DNA of 62,778 nt from Paludibacteraceae bacterium (GTDB lineage: Bacteria > Bacteroidota > Bacteroidia > Bacteroidales > Paludibacteraceae), in the NCBI GenBank assembly GCA_017464475.1, contig JAFTZQ010000026.1, positions 1 through 62,778 on the forward strand. Reading direction: 5' to 3'. How positions within the stretch are numbered: the first letter of the stretch is position 1; each line of letters opens with the position of its first letter. This document shows positions 2,614 through 59,005 of the stretch, piece by piece. The translations under genes and the position numbers were made by a program. Under the pieces are notes generated by a model, which did no database searches, had not been told where the DNA came from, and saw only the letters and a list, made by a program, of their open reading frames with translations.

Positions 2614-2650
2614 AAGCCCCACCCCGACCCTCCCCGTGAAGGGGAGGGAG
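2614..2650. repeat. Palindromic G/C-rich repeat (intergenic copy)
   Basis: The core CCCTCCCCGTGAAGGGGAGGG forms a hairpin between the AsmA-like gene and prfB. It belongs to the same family as copies at 5109, 7031, 7107, 39389, 44352, 44768, 47369, 48139, 48414, 58716 and 58942. There is no T-tract, so it is not an obvious terminator. Confidence 0.8.
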
Positions 2651-2674
2651 AAGAAATTGAGATTTTATTGAATT

Positions 2675-3781
2675 ATGATAACAATAGAACAATTAAAAGA
2701 CGTTCAGCAACGGGCTGACAAGCTGAAAGCGTACTTGCAGATCGACGAGAAACGCATTCAGTTGGAAGAAGAAGAGTTGCACACGCAGGCACCCGGATTC
2801 TGGGACGATGCCAAAGCAGCCGAAGCGCAGATGCGCAAGGTCAAAGGTATCAAACGATGGATCGAGGGCTACGAAGGTGTGCGGGCGGCAGTAGAGGAAC
2901 TGACGCTGAGTTTTGAATATTACAAAGAGGAGTTGGTCTCCGAAGAAGAAGTGGACGCCGCTTACGCGCACGCGCTGCAAGAGGTGGAGGATCTGGAGAT
3001 GAAAAACATGCTTTCGCATGAGGAAGACCAGATGCCGGCTGTGCTGAAGATCGTAGCCGGAGCCGGAGGAACGGAAGCGCAGGACTGGGCAGAGCAGCTG
3101 ATGCGTATGTACCAGCGGTATTGCGAGAAGCACGATTACAAAGTGACCATCGCCAACCTCCAGGAAGGCGACGAAGCGGGCATCAAGACCGTGACCTTCA
3201 ATATCGAAGGAGACATGGCGTACGGCTATCTCAAGTCCGAGAACGGCGTGCATCGCCTCGTGCGTGTGAGTCCTTATAACGCGCAAGGCAAGCGCATGAC
3301 TTCGTTCGCTTCGGTCTTCGTGGTGCCGCTCATCGACGACACGATCGAGGTGGAGGTGAACCCTGCCGGACTGAGTTGGGACACGTTCCGCAGCTCCGGT
3401 GCAGGAGGACAGAACGTCAACAAAGTGGAGTCCGGCGTGCGCTTGCACTATAAGTTCGTCAATCCGCTCACAGGCCAGCCGGACGAGATCGTGATCGAGA
3501 ACACCGAGACGCGCGACCAGCCGAAGAACAGAGAGAACGCTTTGCGGCACTTACGCAGCCAACTCTACGAACTGGAGCTGGAGAAACGCCGTCAGGCGCA
3601 AGCGAAAGTGGAAGCCGGTAAGAAGAAGATTGAATGGGGAAGCCAGATACGCTCGTACGTCTTTGATGACCGGCGCGTCAAAGACCACCGCACCAACTAC
3701 CAGACTTCGAACGTCAATGCCGTCATGGACGGAGACATTGATGCATTCATCAAGGCGTACCTGATGGAGTTCCCAGAGTAA
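2675..3781 (+). CDS. prfB: Peptide chain release factor 2
   Basis: 368 residues, normal full length for RF2. It terminates translation at UGA and UAA. The GGQ motif that triggers peptide release is at 244-246 (SSGAGGQNVNK). The stop-codon recognition loop reads SPY at 199-201 (VRVSPYNAQGKRMTSF) where E. coli has SPF. Coiled-coil domain 1 occupies the first ~100 residues. The frame is uninterrupted from the ATG at 2675: the in-frame TGA and CTTTGAC slippery site used by many bacteria for autoregulatory frameshifting near codon 26 is absent. Expression must therefore be controlled differently. Confidence 0.96.
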   Translation: MITIEQLKDVQQRADKLKAYLQIDEKRIQLEEEELHTQAPGFWDDAKAAEAQMRKVKGIKRWIEGYEGVRAAVEELTLSFEYYKEELVSEEEVDAAYAHALQEVEDLEMKNMLSHEEDQMPAVLKIVAGAGGTEAQDWAEQLMRMYQRYCEKHDYKVTIANLQEGDEAGIKTVTFNIEGDMAYGYLKSENGVHRLVRVSPYNAQGKRMTSFASVFVVPLIDDTIEVEVNPAGLSWDTFRSSGAGGQNVNKVESGVRLHYKFVNPLTGQPDEIVIENTETRDQPKNRENALRHLRSQLYELELEKRRQAQAKVEAGKKKIEWGSQIRSYVFDDRRVKDHRTNYQTSNVNAVMDGDIDAFIKAYLMEFPE

Positions 3782-3796
3782 ATACTATAACTATCG

Positions 3797-55913: not shown

Positions 55914-56741
55914 TTATTTGATTTCAGCGCCGAGGACGTTGAAGGTTTTGCCGTCACGTAGGATACGCAGTTCGCCGTTGACGATACGTTTAACGGACTT
56001 GCCTTCAGCCTGAATATTCTCCACCGCCGAAGGAAGTTCCGGGAAGGATATCACCAAGTTCTGGCTTGCGAACGTCCATGTGAAGGTATAGTCACCGGCT
56101 TGGTCGGCGGTGAGAGCGAAGTTACGGCCTTCATTCACTATATTGACATTATCGGCATGATCCCAGTCACGATGGAGACCGAAGAGAGTCTCTCCTTCAC
56201 CGTTGAGGCTGAGGAAGAAGCCTTCGAGCCATACTTTCATCTCATAGTTTCCTGCCTCCAGGGCGAAAGTCACGCTTGCGCTTGCCTTGTCTTCGGCAAT
56301 GGTCATCGGGTGTGCACCGGATCCCCATGATTCGTCACCCGCGAAATTACCTACGATAGAGACAGCCGGTCTTTCGCCATGAGCGAGCCATGTTCCGTCC
56401 GTCCAGCCTACCAGATAGTAGCAGTCTTTTCCATCCGGAATTTCGAGATCTCCTGTTTTGGTCCAGAGGTTTTCGCTTTCCCATGGGATGGACTCGCTGT
56501 CGCCCTGTGCACGGATAAAAAGGAGGTTGTTGTTGTCATCGGGAATTTCGGCTGAGAAGAGATAATCCTCACCTTCTACGGCGGCTAACTTGGCGTCCGC
56601 ATCCGCGGCTCCTCCCCATGAATGGACAAAGAAGACTGCCCCGAAGGACTTCCAATCCTCGTTAGCTTGGAGGTAAACGGTTTTCGCAGAGAGAGCCGAT
56701 ACAGCCATCAGTGCTACGAGCAAAGAGTAAATCTTTTTCAT
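55914..56741 (-). CDS. Secreted starch-binding-like protein with sorting-like C-terminus
   Basis: 275 residues. Signal peptide MKKIYSLLVALMAVSALSA; CBM-like module (VYLQANEDWKSFGAVFF, GEDYLFSAEIPDDNNNLLFI, 20-130), a second beta-sandwich (~130-235, VSIVGNFAGDESWGSG..., glycogen-binding SusE/F-like), and the tail RIVNGELRILRDGKTFNVLGAEIK, which is the clearest instance of the shared C-terminal motif in this window. 42 bp downstream of GH97; part of the glucan locus. Confidence 0.82.
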   Translation of the reverse strand: MKKIYSLLVALMAVSALSAKTVYLQANEDWKSFGAVFFVHSWGGAADADAKLAAVEGEDYLFSAEIPDDNNNLLFIRAQGDSESIPWESENLWTKTGDLEIPDGKDCYYLVGWTDGTWLAHGERPAVSIVGNFAGDESWGSGAHPMTIAEDKASASVTFALEAGNYEMKVWLEGFFLSLNGEGETLFGLHRDWDHADNVNIVNEGRNFALTADQAGDYTFTWTFASQNLVISFPELPSAVENIQAEGKSVKRIVNGELRILRDGKTFNVLGAEIK

Positions 56742-56782
56742 AATACAATGATTTTGAATGGTTAATAAAAAGGGTTAATTAT

Positions 56783-59005
56783 CTATTGTTTCGGTACGAT
56801 CTTGATTGCACAACCGCCACCGGCAGCGGTGAAGAGTTTGAGTTTGGTTTTGGAGGTTACCGTTTTGGTGGTGATGGTATATGCCTGCGGGTTGGACTTA
56901 TAGTGTGCATTCTTGGCGTCGGCATAGATGGTAGCCGTATATTTGCGTCCGTCGGGCAGGAAAGAGAGGTCGATGAATGCGGTGCGCGGATCGTAGCCGT
57001 TGGTGGAACCGACAAACCAAGCGTCGGTATCTTTCTGCTTACGGGCGATGGTGACATACTCGTATGGTTCCGCCTCCAGATAATAGGGTTGGTCCCACTC
57101 GACCGGCACATCGACGATGAATTGGAAAGCGTCCAGGAAGCGCTCGTAGTTATCGGGTATGTCGGCTGCCATTTGGAGCGGGCTGTAGAGGGTGACATAG
57201 AGCGAGAGCTGGTTGCAGAGGGTCGTATTGCACCATGAGTTGGAATTGGGGTTGAGCTTGTGGATATCATTCTCGAAAATACCGGGTGTATAGTCCATCG
57301 GTCCGCCGATGAGTCGTGTGAAAGGGAGCATGGTGGTATGGTTGGGTGCCGAGCCTCCGAACGCCTGGTATTCGGTACCCTGCGCGGACTCGTTACCGAT
57401 GAGGTTCGGCCATGTGCGGCATAGTCCTGTCGGACGGACTGCCTCATGGGCATTGACCATAATATGATATTTAGCTGCCTTCTCCACGCAGTACTGATAG
57501 TGGTTGTTCATCCATTGGGAGTAATGGTGCTCTCCCTTAGGCAGGAGGTTTCCTACATATCCGGATTTGACAGCGGGGTATTCGTATTTGTTCATAAACT
57601 GGTACGCCGTGTCGAGCCATCGCTCGTAATTACGGATAGCACCGGAGGTCTCGTGGTGCATGATCATCTTCACACCCTTGGATTTTGCATAATCATGGAT
57701 AGCCTCTACATCGAAATCGGGATAAGGAGTGACAAAGTCATAGACGAAGTCCTTCTCGTTTCCGAACCAGTCTTCCCAACCGATATTCCATCCCTCAACG
57801 AGCACGCCGTCAAAGCCATACTTAGCCGCGAAATCGATATATTTTTTCACGTTCGCAGTGGTGGCGCCATGACGACCGTGGGGTTTGGCTTTGGAGTAAT
57901 CAGTCACGCCAATATGGATGGAGGGGAAATCCCAAGTGTATGACCAATCGCGCATGCCGGCGATCATCTCCCACCAGACGCCGACGTATTTCATGGGTTT
58001 GATCCACGAGGTGTCCTCAATCTTGCATGGCTCGTTGAGATTGAGCACAATACGGGAGGCAAGGATGTCTTTCGCCGTTTCTCCGACCATGATGACGCGC
58101 CAGGGGCTGACGGCGTCGGTCTGGATATGTCCCTTTGTACCGTCGATGTCCGGCGTGAGATGGGAAGTAAATGTCCATCGAGACTCGTCCAAGTCAAGAT
58201 GCATGCAGGAGTAGTTCACCAATGCCGCCTCGTGGATATTGAGCCACAATGTATGATCCTTGGTACTTTGTACCTTGTCTCCTTGTACCTTAAACAGGAC
58301 GGGGGTCTGCACACCGGTAGTGGAGAAAGTGGTGGTAGAGAGATTCGCCTTGTTGGTTTTCTCCTGAATAGCGCGTATCTCGCTCAGTTTGGAGCGGGTG
58401 TATTCGTACTCCTGGGTGTCGTAATCCCCTGGAATCCAATAGGCAGTGATATCGCCGGGAAGGGCGAACTGGGTCTGCTCCTCCTCAATCACGAAATAGT
58501 TGAGGTTCTTCTGCTGGGGGAAGATATATCGGAAACCGAGTCCGTCGTCATAGAGGCGGAACTGGAGTTGGATATAACGGTCTTTGGCGGGTTGCTTGAG
58601 GGTAATGAGCATCTCATGATAAGAATTATGGATACGGCGTTCCTCCCCCCAGACGGGTGTCCACCAGTCGTCGTGGATAAAACGCTCGGATCCGGTCATT
58701 ACAAAGCCGGAGAGTAACCCCTCCCCGCCCCTCCCCTCAAGGGAGGGAGAAGAAGATTCCTCTTTATAGTCATTGAAATCACCGCGTGAATGTTCTCCGC
58801 GAAGCTGCAGCCCCAGATAGGAGGGACGGATGACGGTGTCGCCCTTGTGGAGCAACCAATAGACGGGTCTGCCGTCCTGCACATCGAAATAAGCAGTCAG
58901 ATTCAGCGAGGGGGACTCTACTTTCTCTATGGAGTACAAGCACCCCACCCGACCTCCCCACAAGGGGAGGAGAAAAAGACAAAAGACTAAAATGTACTTC
59001 TTCAT
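56783..59005 (-). CDS. Glycoside hydrolase family 97 (SusB-like alpha-glucosidase)
   Basis: 740 residues from the ATG at 59005. GH97 N-domain, TIM barrel ([33 protein letters not shown]) and C-domain. Catalytic and calcium-site glutamates correspond to those of SusB with a constant offset of 13: Glu452 (HHETSG), Glu521 ([10 protein letters not shown]) and Glu545 (GTEYQ) for E439, E508 and E532, so an inverting alpha-glucosidase. Two palindromic repeats are in frame: residues ~10-21 form the signal-peptide core ([12 protein letters not shown]) and ~84-97 add [21 protein letters not shown] repeat adds [11 protein letters not shown] (~243-253). Downstream of GH66 in the glucan locus. Confidence 0.93.
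58257..58300. repeat. CTTGTACC tandem repeat in GH97 gene
   Basis: Units CCTTGGTACTTTGTACC / TTGTCTCCTTGTACC in frame. Confidence 0.78.
58716..58752. repeat. Palindromic repeat in GH97 gene (internal)
   Basis: CCCTCCCCTCAAGGGAGGG type with extra CCCCTCCCCGCC, in frame. Confidence 0.85.
58942..58974. repeat. Palindromic repeat in GH97 signal peptide
   Basis: ACCTCCCCACAAGGGGAGGAG, in frame, minus-strand reading [10 protein letters not shown]. Confidence 0.85.

Follow-up and report, generated by a model that had tools for sequence, protein, structure and literature searches.

The window analysed here (62,778 nt) corresponds to contig C15 in a metagenome-assembled genome (MAG), 1.9 Mb in size and 71% complete, from a rumen bacterium of the family Paludibacteraceae. 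It holds, among other genes, prfB, dnaE, folC, prmA, yicC, mnmE and genes for an S41 peptidase and a GH97 protein, and carries twelve copies of a dispersed element of about 36 bp (Table 1). An earlier note on this DNA had placed at least twelve copies of a palindrome in it, and all twelve stated places were confirmed by direct reading and with a covariance model. The model was built from 60 copies, ten of the window copies included (those at 7104 and 47370 were not in the build), and recovers exactly the twelve window copies at E up to 0.1. Eight of them lie in frame in coding sequence, as had been noted, one each in the S41 gene and dnaE and two each in prmA, mnmE and GH97; Pfam supports these hosts (PHP/DNA polymerase III alpha, PrmA, MnmE, Peptidase_S41 and GH97). 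Their description as essential genes fits dnaE only; prmA, mnmE and the GH97 and S41 genes are not as a rule essential. The earlier reading was also incomplete, in that the same loops take unrelated heptamer and octamer repeats as well.

Anatomy and triplex layout of the element

The consensus of the 60 copies shows an asymmetric element formed by a C-rich block and a C/G hairpin. On the C-rich strand, AA is followed by the C-rich block A of roughly 9 nt; a turn of 2 nt leads into the first stem arm, and a loop (TCAA or similar), the second arm and AGA complete the element. Sequence conservation declines outside the AA...AGA ends. The turn itself is variable (GA, AG, AA, GT, GG and others). 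The stem occurs in several subtypes (CCCTCCCC, CCTCCCC, CTCCCCC, TCCCCCC, CCCTCTCC and TCTCCCC), and block A covaries with the subtype as a mirror of the stem arm in which A is permitted for T. The consensus has no GTAG or CGTC tag beside the hairpin, and Rfam gave no match within the window.

A mirror repeat is of no use for Watson-Crick pairing, but is just what a third strand requires. Because block A mirrors the hairpin arm, the G-rich strand, which runs from a pyrimidine arm through the loop, the purine arm and a short turn to a second purine strand, is arranged like a class II purine-motif intrastrand triplex. Among 61 unique pairs of block A and stem arm from this genome, the mirror match exceeds the direct repeat in 24 and the reverse is found in 5, with 32 ties; the 48 pairs from loci of other genomes divide into 26, 2 and 20, respectively. 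In a permutation test, the mirror score was 0.864 (permuted, 0.797 ± 0.010) and the direct score 0.800 (permuted, 0.786, with 7% of permutations as high). The 451 kb of this genome analysed for placement contain 56 copies, with a mean stem of 6.9 bp and most stems of 6–8 nt. Antiparallel triads (G.GC, A.AT, T.AT) with at most one mismatch can be drawn for 54 of these 56 copies, compared to 43 in the parallel control, and forbidden triads are wholly absent from 29 copies, compared to 18. The full triplex layout occurs 39 times in the 451 kb, and 0, 0 and 0 times in three first-order random sequences. By reading, four G-runs are absent from the CCTCTCC subtypes, which bears on the idea of a G-quadruplex.

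Judged by this layout, the element belongs to the class II intrastrand triplex motifs in their general kind, and its G-rich strand could adopt the triplex in the cell. The enterobacterial motif TM_ECO, formerly called PIT elements, offers a comparison. Passages of Holder et al. (2015; PMC4666352) name this class of motifs and describe TM_ECO as 5'-CCCTCNCCC-N3-6-GGGNGAGGG-N3-GGGNGAGGG, with 3610 copies in 262 proteobacterial genomes, so a named counterpart exists; the earlier note had known of none in Bacteroidales. The stem "Bacteroid-" is absent from the main text of that paper. According to the same passages, TM_ECO forms a triplex in vitro, occurs exclusively between genes in E. coli K-12 and is tied to variable loci, and the motif search was run with a minimum stem of 6 nt and a mismatch permitted in longer stems only. 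The element described here resembles TM_ECO, as presented there, in arm order, triad rules, G/C-rich arms and size (34–37 nt in Table 1 of PMC4666352), and also in a copy number that differs strongly between close strains and in variable surroundings. By contrast, TM_ECO has 9-nt stems (CCCTCNCCC / GGGNGAGGG / GGGNGAGGG), was counted in proteobacterial genomes and is always intergenic in E. coli K-12, whereas the element has shorter stems, is found in Bacteroidota with 36 of the 56 copies in open reading frames (ORFs), and alternates with tandem repeats, unlike TM_ECO in those passages. Because of the shorter stems, the element is not filed as TM_ECO.

Placement in proteins and preservation of the reading frame

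The remaining copies in the 451 kb lie between ORFs (15) or at their edges (5). ORFs, which here are longest-ORF choices and not gene calls (C9:49555, for instance, lies in a 113-codon ORF that is perhaps no gene), make up 88% of the sequence; the element is therefore depleted in genes, though far from absent there. Frame preservation was analysed against RUG11067 (L135), a rumen MAG of the Paludibacteraceae/Bacteroidales and, with RUG13776, among the nearest named relatives, whose aligned segments are 88–96% identical, with an overall mismatch of 4.7%. An alignment of about 216 kb gave 100 indel or replacement blocks of at least 9 nt at 99 distinct places, 52 of them inside ORFs. Length differences are multiples of three in 42 of the 52 coding places, compared to 13 of the 47 non-coding ones.

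In a PrmA model (28 sequences; mean predicted local distance difference test score, pLDDT, of 84), residues 61–64 of the first element and the residues coded by the octamer repeat (133–138) are coil with pLDDT below 50, and the second element is predicted confidently as coil with a short helix, 202–205. Relative to the solved MnmE structure 3gee, the 48139 element adds five residues and the 47370 element none. The catalytic part of GH97 is offset by +16 in the alignment to SusB. This offset is a sum of +7 at the N-terminus (perhaps with a contribution from the 58940 element), about +3 at the 58716 element, +9 at the CTTGGTAC octamer site, and small deletions; the offset of +13 that had been taken as a sign of insertion therefore does not correspond to any single 13-residue insertion.

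The likeness to Rickettsia palindromic elements (RPEs) proposed in the earlier note extends to the in-frame habit, but not to sequence or size. Both are short palindromes found in frame in conserved protein genes and also between genes, and passages of PMC3733652 report a repetitive extragenic palindrome (REP) in dnaE of R. conorii. The type covered in passages of PMC2229807 measures 105–146 bp compared to about 36 bp, and the two were set apart without a sequence alignment. In addition, RPE-4 and RPE-6 are CGTC repeats in the PMC3733652 passages, and the passages seen mention no third-strand block for RPEs.

Site sharing and turnover at protein loops

Eight loops (one in dnaE, two each in folC, prmA and mnmE, and one in yicC) were compared across 22–52 relatives each. 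They are occupied by hairpins, heptamers, octamers or short sequence, the last of which includes segments of zero length, and all segments have lengths divisible by three. The extra residues proved lineage-specific, in agreement with the earlier expectation: the mnmE 48139 site measures 15 nt in 19 of 25 relatives and 30 nt in this genome, and the prmA 44352 allele is found in 0 of 35. At the latter site, a C/G-rich stretch in L118 is possibly a decayed relative of the element. The second prmA site (44771) holds less regular versions of the same length in L155 and in RUG13776 (L113; a rumen MAG of the Paludibacteraceae/Bacteroidales, 86–91% identical), which can be read as decay. The mnmE 47370 allele is common to RUG11067 alone among 22 relatives, with other subtypes in L125 and L141. 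The folC 43657 site carries a C/G hairpin element in L119, L121 and L114 and a ACGGGATT repeat in L133; the folC 43925 site carries a triplex-motif element in L133 and only 9 nt in most relatives; and the yicC 46745 site has a G/C hairpin stretch in L119.

Since the compared sites are variable loops, low-complexity linkers that converged under selection on the protein might be considered in place of a DNA element. We regard this as very improbable, given a conserved DNA hairpin with a third-strand block that occurs in both orientations, in several frames and also between genes. A similarly slight chance is given to an artefact of MAG assembly or binning; assemblies do break at repeats and the data are without long reads, but the alleles are common to several MAGs and keep the frame.

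The dnaE element and its native right flank, together 44 nt, are identical in this genome, L042 (G174), L114 and L039 (G178; L140 is apparently the same contig), although dnaE of these three relatives is only 80–82% identical to that of this genome. In this genome, the flanks of the element are mostly 90–100% identical to L113 and L135, both of which lack the element there. An identical 44-nt allele in otherwise divergent genes points to short-tract recombination. In a dnaE tree built without the loop, the six element alleles fall in six places, at least five of which are forced by starred branches. The five allele classes, labelled by the author's patterns for 40 of the 41 rows (L142 is without a label), need 19 changes on this tree, with a shuffled mean of 22.1 and values as low in 10 of 200 shufflings. 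A further repeat type, on AGACCGCTTCGCT, fills the dnaE loop in L119, L120, L121 and L133, and also in L040 and L049, and is the mark of a single four-species clade in the tree.

The comparison with RUG11067 shows the extent of turnover. Among the in-frame copies, 27 could be aligned; RUG11067 keeps 14 of them, and the other 13 are missing or replaced, defined as an identity below 0.6 to the copy in the alignment. By reading of the RUG11067 alleles, another repeat occupies the site in 8 of these 13: heptamers at C13:234384, C13:237744, dnaE and C9:77951, TTTCAATT at prmA 44349, CTTGGTAC at C9:43099 and C9:49555, and GACATACCGAGATATCG at C9:67275. In an automatic classification, 29 of the 52 coding events have a hairpin or tandem repeat on one side or more, including 9 with one on each side, by classes that overlook imperfect hairpins (two called in dnaE, compared to six by allele patterns). 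Divergence at four-fold sites is 0.19–0.23 at 16–60 nt from coding events and 0.12–0.14 beyond 100 nt, compared to 0.113 overall.

Recombination alone, in which old alleles spread between species by homologous exchange of short segments with no recent insertion, would account for the dnaE allele shared by four genomes, with other alleles there in the nearest relatives, and for the six places in the tree. It sits less well with C13:153055, a 39-bp copy opposite an empty site in RUG11067 that has little flank divergence (differences at 2 of the 28 four-fold sites within 100 nt), and with the prmA 44352 allele, absent from the small sample of 35 possible donors; we consider it unlikely as the sole process. 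No target site duplication of the kind that marks MITEs was seen at C13:153055, the sole clean insertion inspected. Taken together, the comparisons suggest that short-tract recombination contributes, that relaxed constraint does so too, and that some events, such as C13:153055, look like plain gain or loss. A hairpin-like repeat on AATCGTGCC / GGCACGATT, with a varying loop, was also observed at C13:214635, C13:150542 and window position 45066; at each place it is present in just one of this genome and RUG11067, and the RUG11067 copy at C13:214635 is in frame in a gene.

The coordinates of the window features are collected in Table 1. The heptamer and octamer units are not multiples of three, yet the arrays are in frame in folC, prmA, yicC and GH97. 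Further features of the window are a hairpin repeat, GCTCGCGCAATNATGCGCGAGAAATGCA, at 49539-49566, 50302-50331 and 62325-62354; a pair of 300-nt duplicates, 87% identical, at 48444-48743 and 62365-62664, the first of which overlaps an ORF of 112 codons that has no match in Pfam; and a single ORF of 3452 codons at 24589-34947.

Table 1. Copies of the element and tandem repeats in the window.
Feature	Position	Strand	Remarks
Triplex-motif element, intergenic	2615..2654	+	After ORF 930-2612, before prfB (2675); also in RUG11067
Triplex-motif element	5106..5142	+	End of ORF 3894-5108, just upstream of UPF0029 gene (5145-5510); absent in RUG11067
Triplex-motif element, intergenic	7030..7066	+	Between 6580-7029 and S41 gene
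Element, in frame near N-terminus of S41 peptidase (7070-8719 +)	7104..7142	-	Encodes SLPLWGGLGRG
Element, in frame in dnaE (38838-42866 +)	39387..39424	+	Encodes NLSQTLPSREG; heptamer array there in RUG11067
Element, in frame in prmA (44181-45044 +)	44349..44386	-	Encodes SSPLHGGIEGG; TTTCAATT-type repeat there in RUG11067
Second prmA element, in frame	44771..44808	-	Encodes SSPPFREGLGVG; common to RUG11067
Element, in frame in mnmE (46984-48330 -)	47370..47404	-	Encodes KAPQPPEGGG
Element, in frame in mnmE	48136..48169	-	Encodes VAPQPPEGGE; +5 residues vs most relatives and solved MnmE 3gee
Triplex-motif element, intergenic	48414..48447	-	Covariance model
Element, in frame in GH97 (56783-59014 -)	58716..58753	+	Covariance model, SusB alignment
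Element, in frame near N-terminus of GH97	58940..58976	+	Covariance model
Heptamer repeat (CAGCATT type) in folC	43657..43719	+	
ATCTCAAA octamer repeat in folC	43925..43960	+	
CTTGGTAC octamer repeat, in frame in prmA	44567..44602	+	RUG11067 version 15 nt longer
Heptamer repeat, in frame in yicC	46745..46800	-	
CTTGGTAC octamer repeat in GH97	58256..58291	-	Coincides with 9-residue insertion vs SusB

Spread, candidate mobiliser and interpretation

The genome-wide search proposed in the earlier note returned at least 108 copies in this genome (covariance model; 110 candidates scored) and 77 in RUG11067. A 17-mer core with up to three mismatches gives 92+109 matches on the two strands of this genome, compared to 1+1 for the backwards pattern; the core is nearly palindromic, so that a single copy may count on both strands. 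In a genus sample of 61 genomes, 36 have at least one copy, 12 have at least ten and 25 have none. A class sample yielded a match in 54 of 295 genomes (22 candidates scored per genome) and none in the nine listed genomes from other families of the same order under the same scoring. Across the phylum, a pattern for the common subtypes matched 36 of 198 genomes and its reversed control 4 of 198, with this genome in both. Of the class-sample loci, 30 of 42 matches lie within open frames of at least 100 codons, a weak test as the frames were read from stop to stop, and several such matches appear, by reading, at signal-peptide positions. The repeat of triplex layout is thus real, class-wide yet patchy.

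A candidate mobiliser would be a transposase of the REP-associated tyrosine transposase (RAYT) kind, whose Y1 (HUH) domain would move the hairpin as single-stranded DNA, as for REPs and REPINs. The element shares with these systems, in the passages of PMC3733652, dispersed hairpins of 20–40 bp, some of them inside genes, and CGTC repeats are reported there from Bacteroidetes. A divergent RAYT-like family of about 330–430 residues has two copies in this genome and matches in 41 of the 61 genus genomes. Residues H85, H87 and Y184 are invariant in 19 sequences, and the best NCBIfam match is REP_Tyr_transpos (NF047646), below cut-off in 5 of 5 proteins tested (E-values of 1.9e-9 for G134, and 2.1e-5 and 6.3e-5 for the two copies of this genome). 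Such a gene occurs in 11 of 12 element-rich and 14 of 25 element-free genomes (p 0.058). Nevertheless, none of 20 RAYT-like loci has the element within 500 bp of the gene, the nearest lying more than 1 kb away in two loci; the genes bear or adjoin other hairpins instead, for example CCCGAATNNNATTCGGG. Moreover, 18 Y1_Tnp loci, nearly all from other genera, have no C/G hairpin of the element kind, the copy numbers of element and gene are uncorrelated (Spearman 0.19, p 0.15), and the GTAG and CGTC tags are missing from the consensus. Mobilisation by this family therefore appears doubtful.

The RAYT-like loci are L279:2457-3506 and L280:2492-3529 (this genome, C28 and C11) and L281–L298, and their proteins have an extra C-terminal part. 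Some of their hairpins are in frame inside the transposase gene itself (PELNSGL, TPESDSGEG), and L297 and L287 have similar hairpins on both sides of the gene. The lack of a Pfam Y1_Tnp match had suggested a genome without RAYT, a reading overturned by a protein search and an alignment search. For reverse transcriptase (PF00078), considered as another mobiliser and rejected, no match was found in 15 of 19 genomes, this genome and G178 included; the matches are in G204, G164, G185 and G157.

The explanation that we favour as a whole, with a probability of roughly 55%, is a non-autonomous repeat of triplex layout that is selected in frame and exchanged at loops. According to this explanation, a dispersed repeat, about 36 bp long, has expanded in a subset of the species within this Paludibacteraceae genus. 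We infer that it inserts into genes and intergenic DNA alike, and that selection would retain the in-frame copies in tolerant loops and N-terminal leaders. Copies in genes are gained, lost and exchanged for other short repeats that use these loops, in part by short-tract homologous recombination between species and in part, perhaps, when structured DNA is miscopied or wrongly repaired, and old copies would decay to ordinary linkers. Copy number, layout, frame preservation, site sharing, turnover and the dnaE tract are direct findings; triplex formation in the cell, structure as the driver of turnover and the route by which a first copy reaches a gene are proposals.

Several observations speak against this explanation. 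With regard to the layout, the copies tested came from a model that already requires a C-rich block A, the copies are related, so that the mirror counts are not independent, and many stems are mirror-symmetric. Outside the genus, with one copy per genome, not only the mirror score (0.990, with 0.920 by chance) but also the direct score (0.966, with 0.920) is above chance, the latter because many stems are mirror-symmetric. The stems are shorter on average than the 9 bp of the enterobacterial motif, and for TM_ECO itself, passages of PMC4666352 report in vivo footprints in E. coli without the expected protection. With regard to turnover, 5 of the 13 lost copies correspond to a RUG11067 allele with no recognised repeat, and 7 of 9 alignable copies outside genes or at their edges are kept, with another subtype in RUG11067 at an eighth place. 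Stable copies outside genes argue against structure alone as the driver and indicate that rapid turnover is a feature of genes and not general. Second positions also rise near coding events, several events show no excess in the flanks, and flank divergence can partly reflect relaxed constraint or alignment error. A copy leaves 4.5 of 6 frames open on average, compared to 4.1 of 6 for random 38-mers, so freedom from stops accounts for little of the in-frame placement. Finally, all evidence comes from MAGs. The stability of non-genic copies and the near-chance stop-freedom led us to grade this explanation down and the RAYT and recombination-only alternatives up.

Each ingredient of the system has a precedent. 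Cyanobacterial small dispersed repeats, a subject associated with Elhai (2008), are reportedly tiny, without a known transposase and found alongside heptanucleotide arrays. In the openly licensed literature in PMC, neither an account of triplex motifs placed in frame nor one of the present element in Bacteroidota was found, nor a description of the combination of these ingredients or of repeat-for-repeat exchange at fixed loops.

A broader and rather speculative possibility is that a genome-wide process uses the loops as exchange sites, writing short repeats of several unrelated families (triplex motif, heptamers, octamers and other hairpins) into permissive codon positions and replacing one by another, with one dedicated copying or recombination activity, and not separate transposons, serving all of them. 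If this were true, the linkers of core enzymes would be continually re-equipped, and the triplex motif would be one cassette among several. The triplex-forming repeats of E. coli are described as intergenic and destabilising; here, functional enzymes contain such repeats, which turn over within about 5% divergence, at loops that unrelated repeats use too. The genus offers a natural system for asking whether non-B DNA drives the in-frame evolution of protein loops, and the element may account for odd lineage-specific segments in Bacteroidota proteins, such as SLPLWGGLGRG, APQPPEGG and PSLEGRG.

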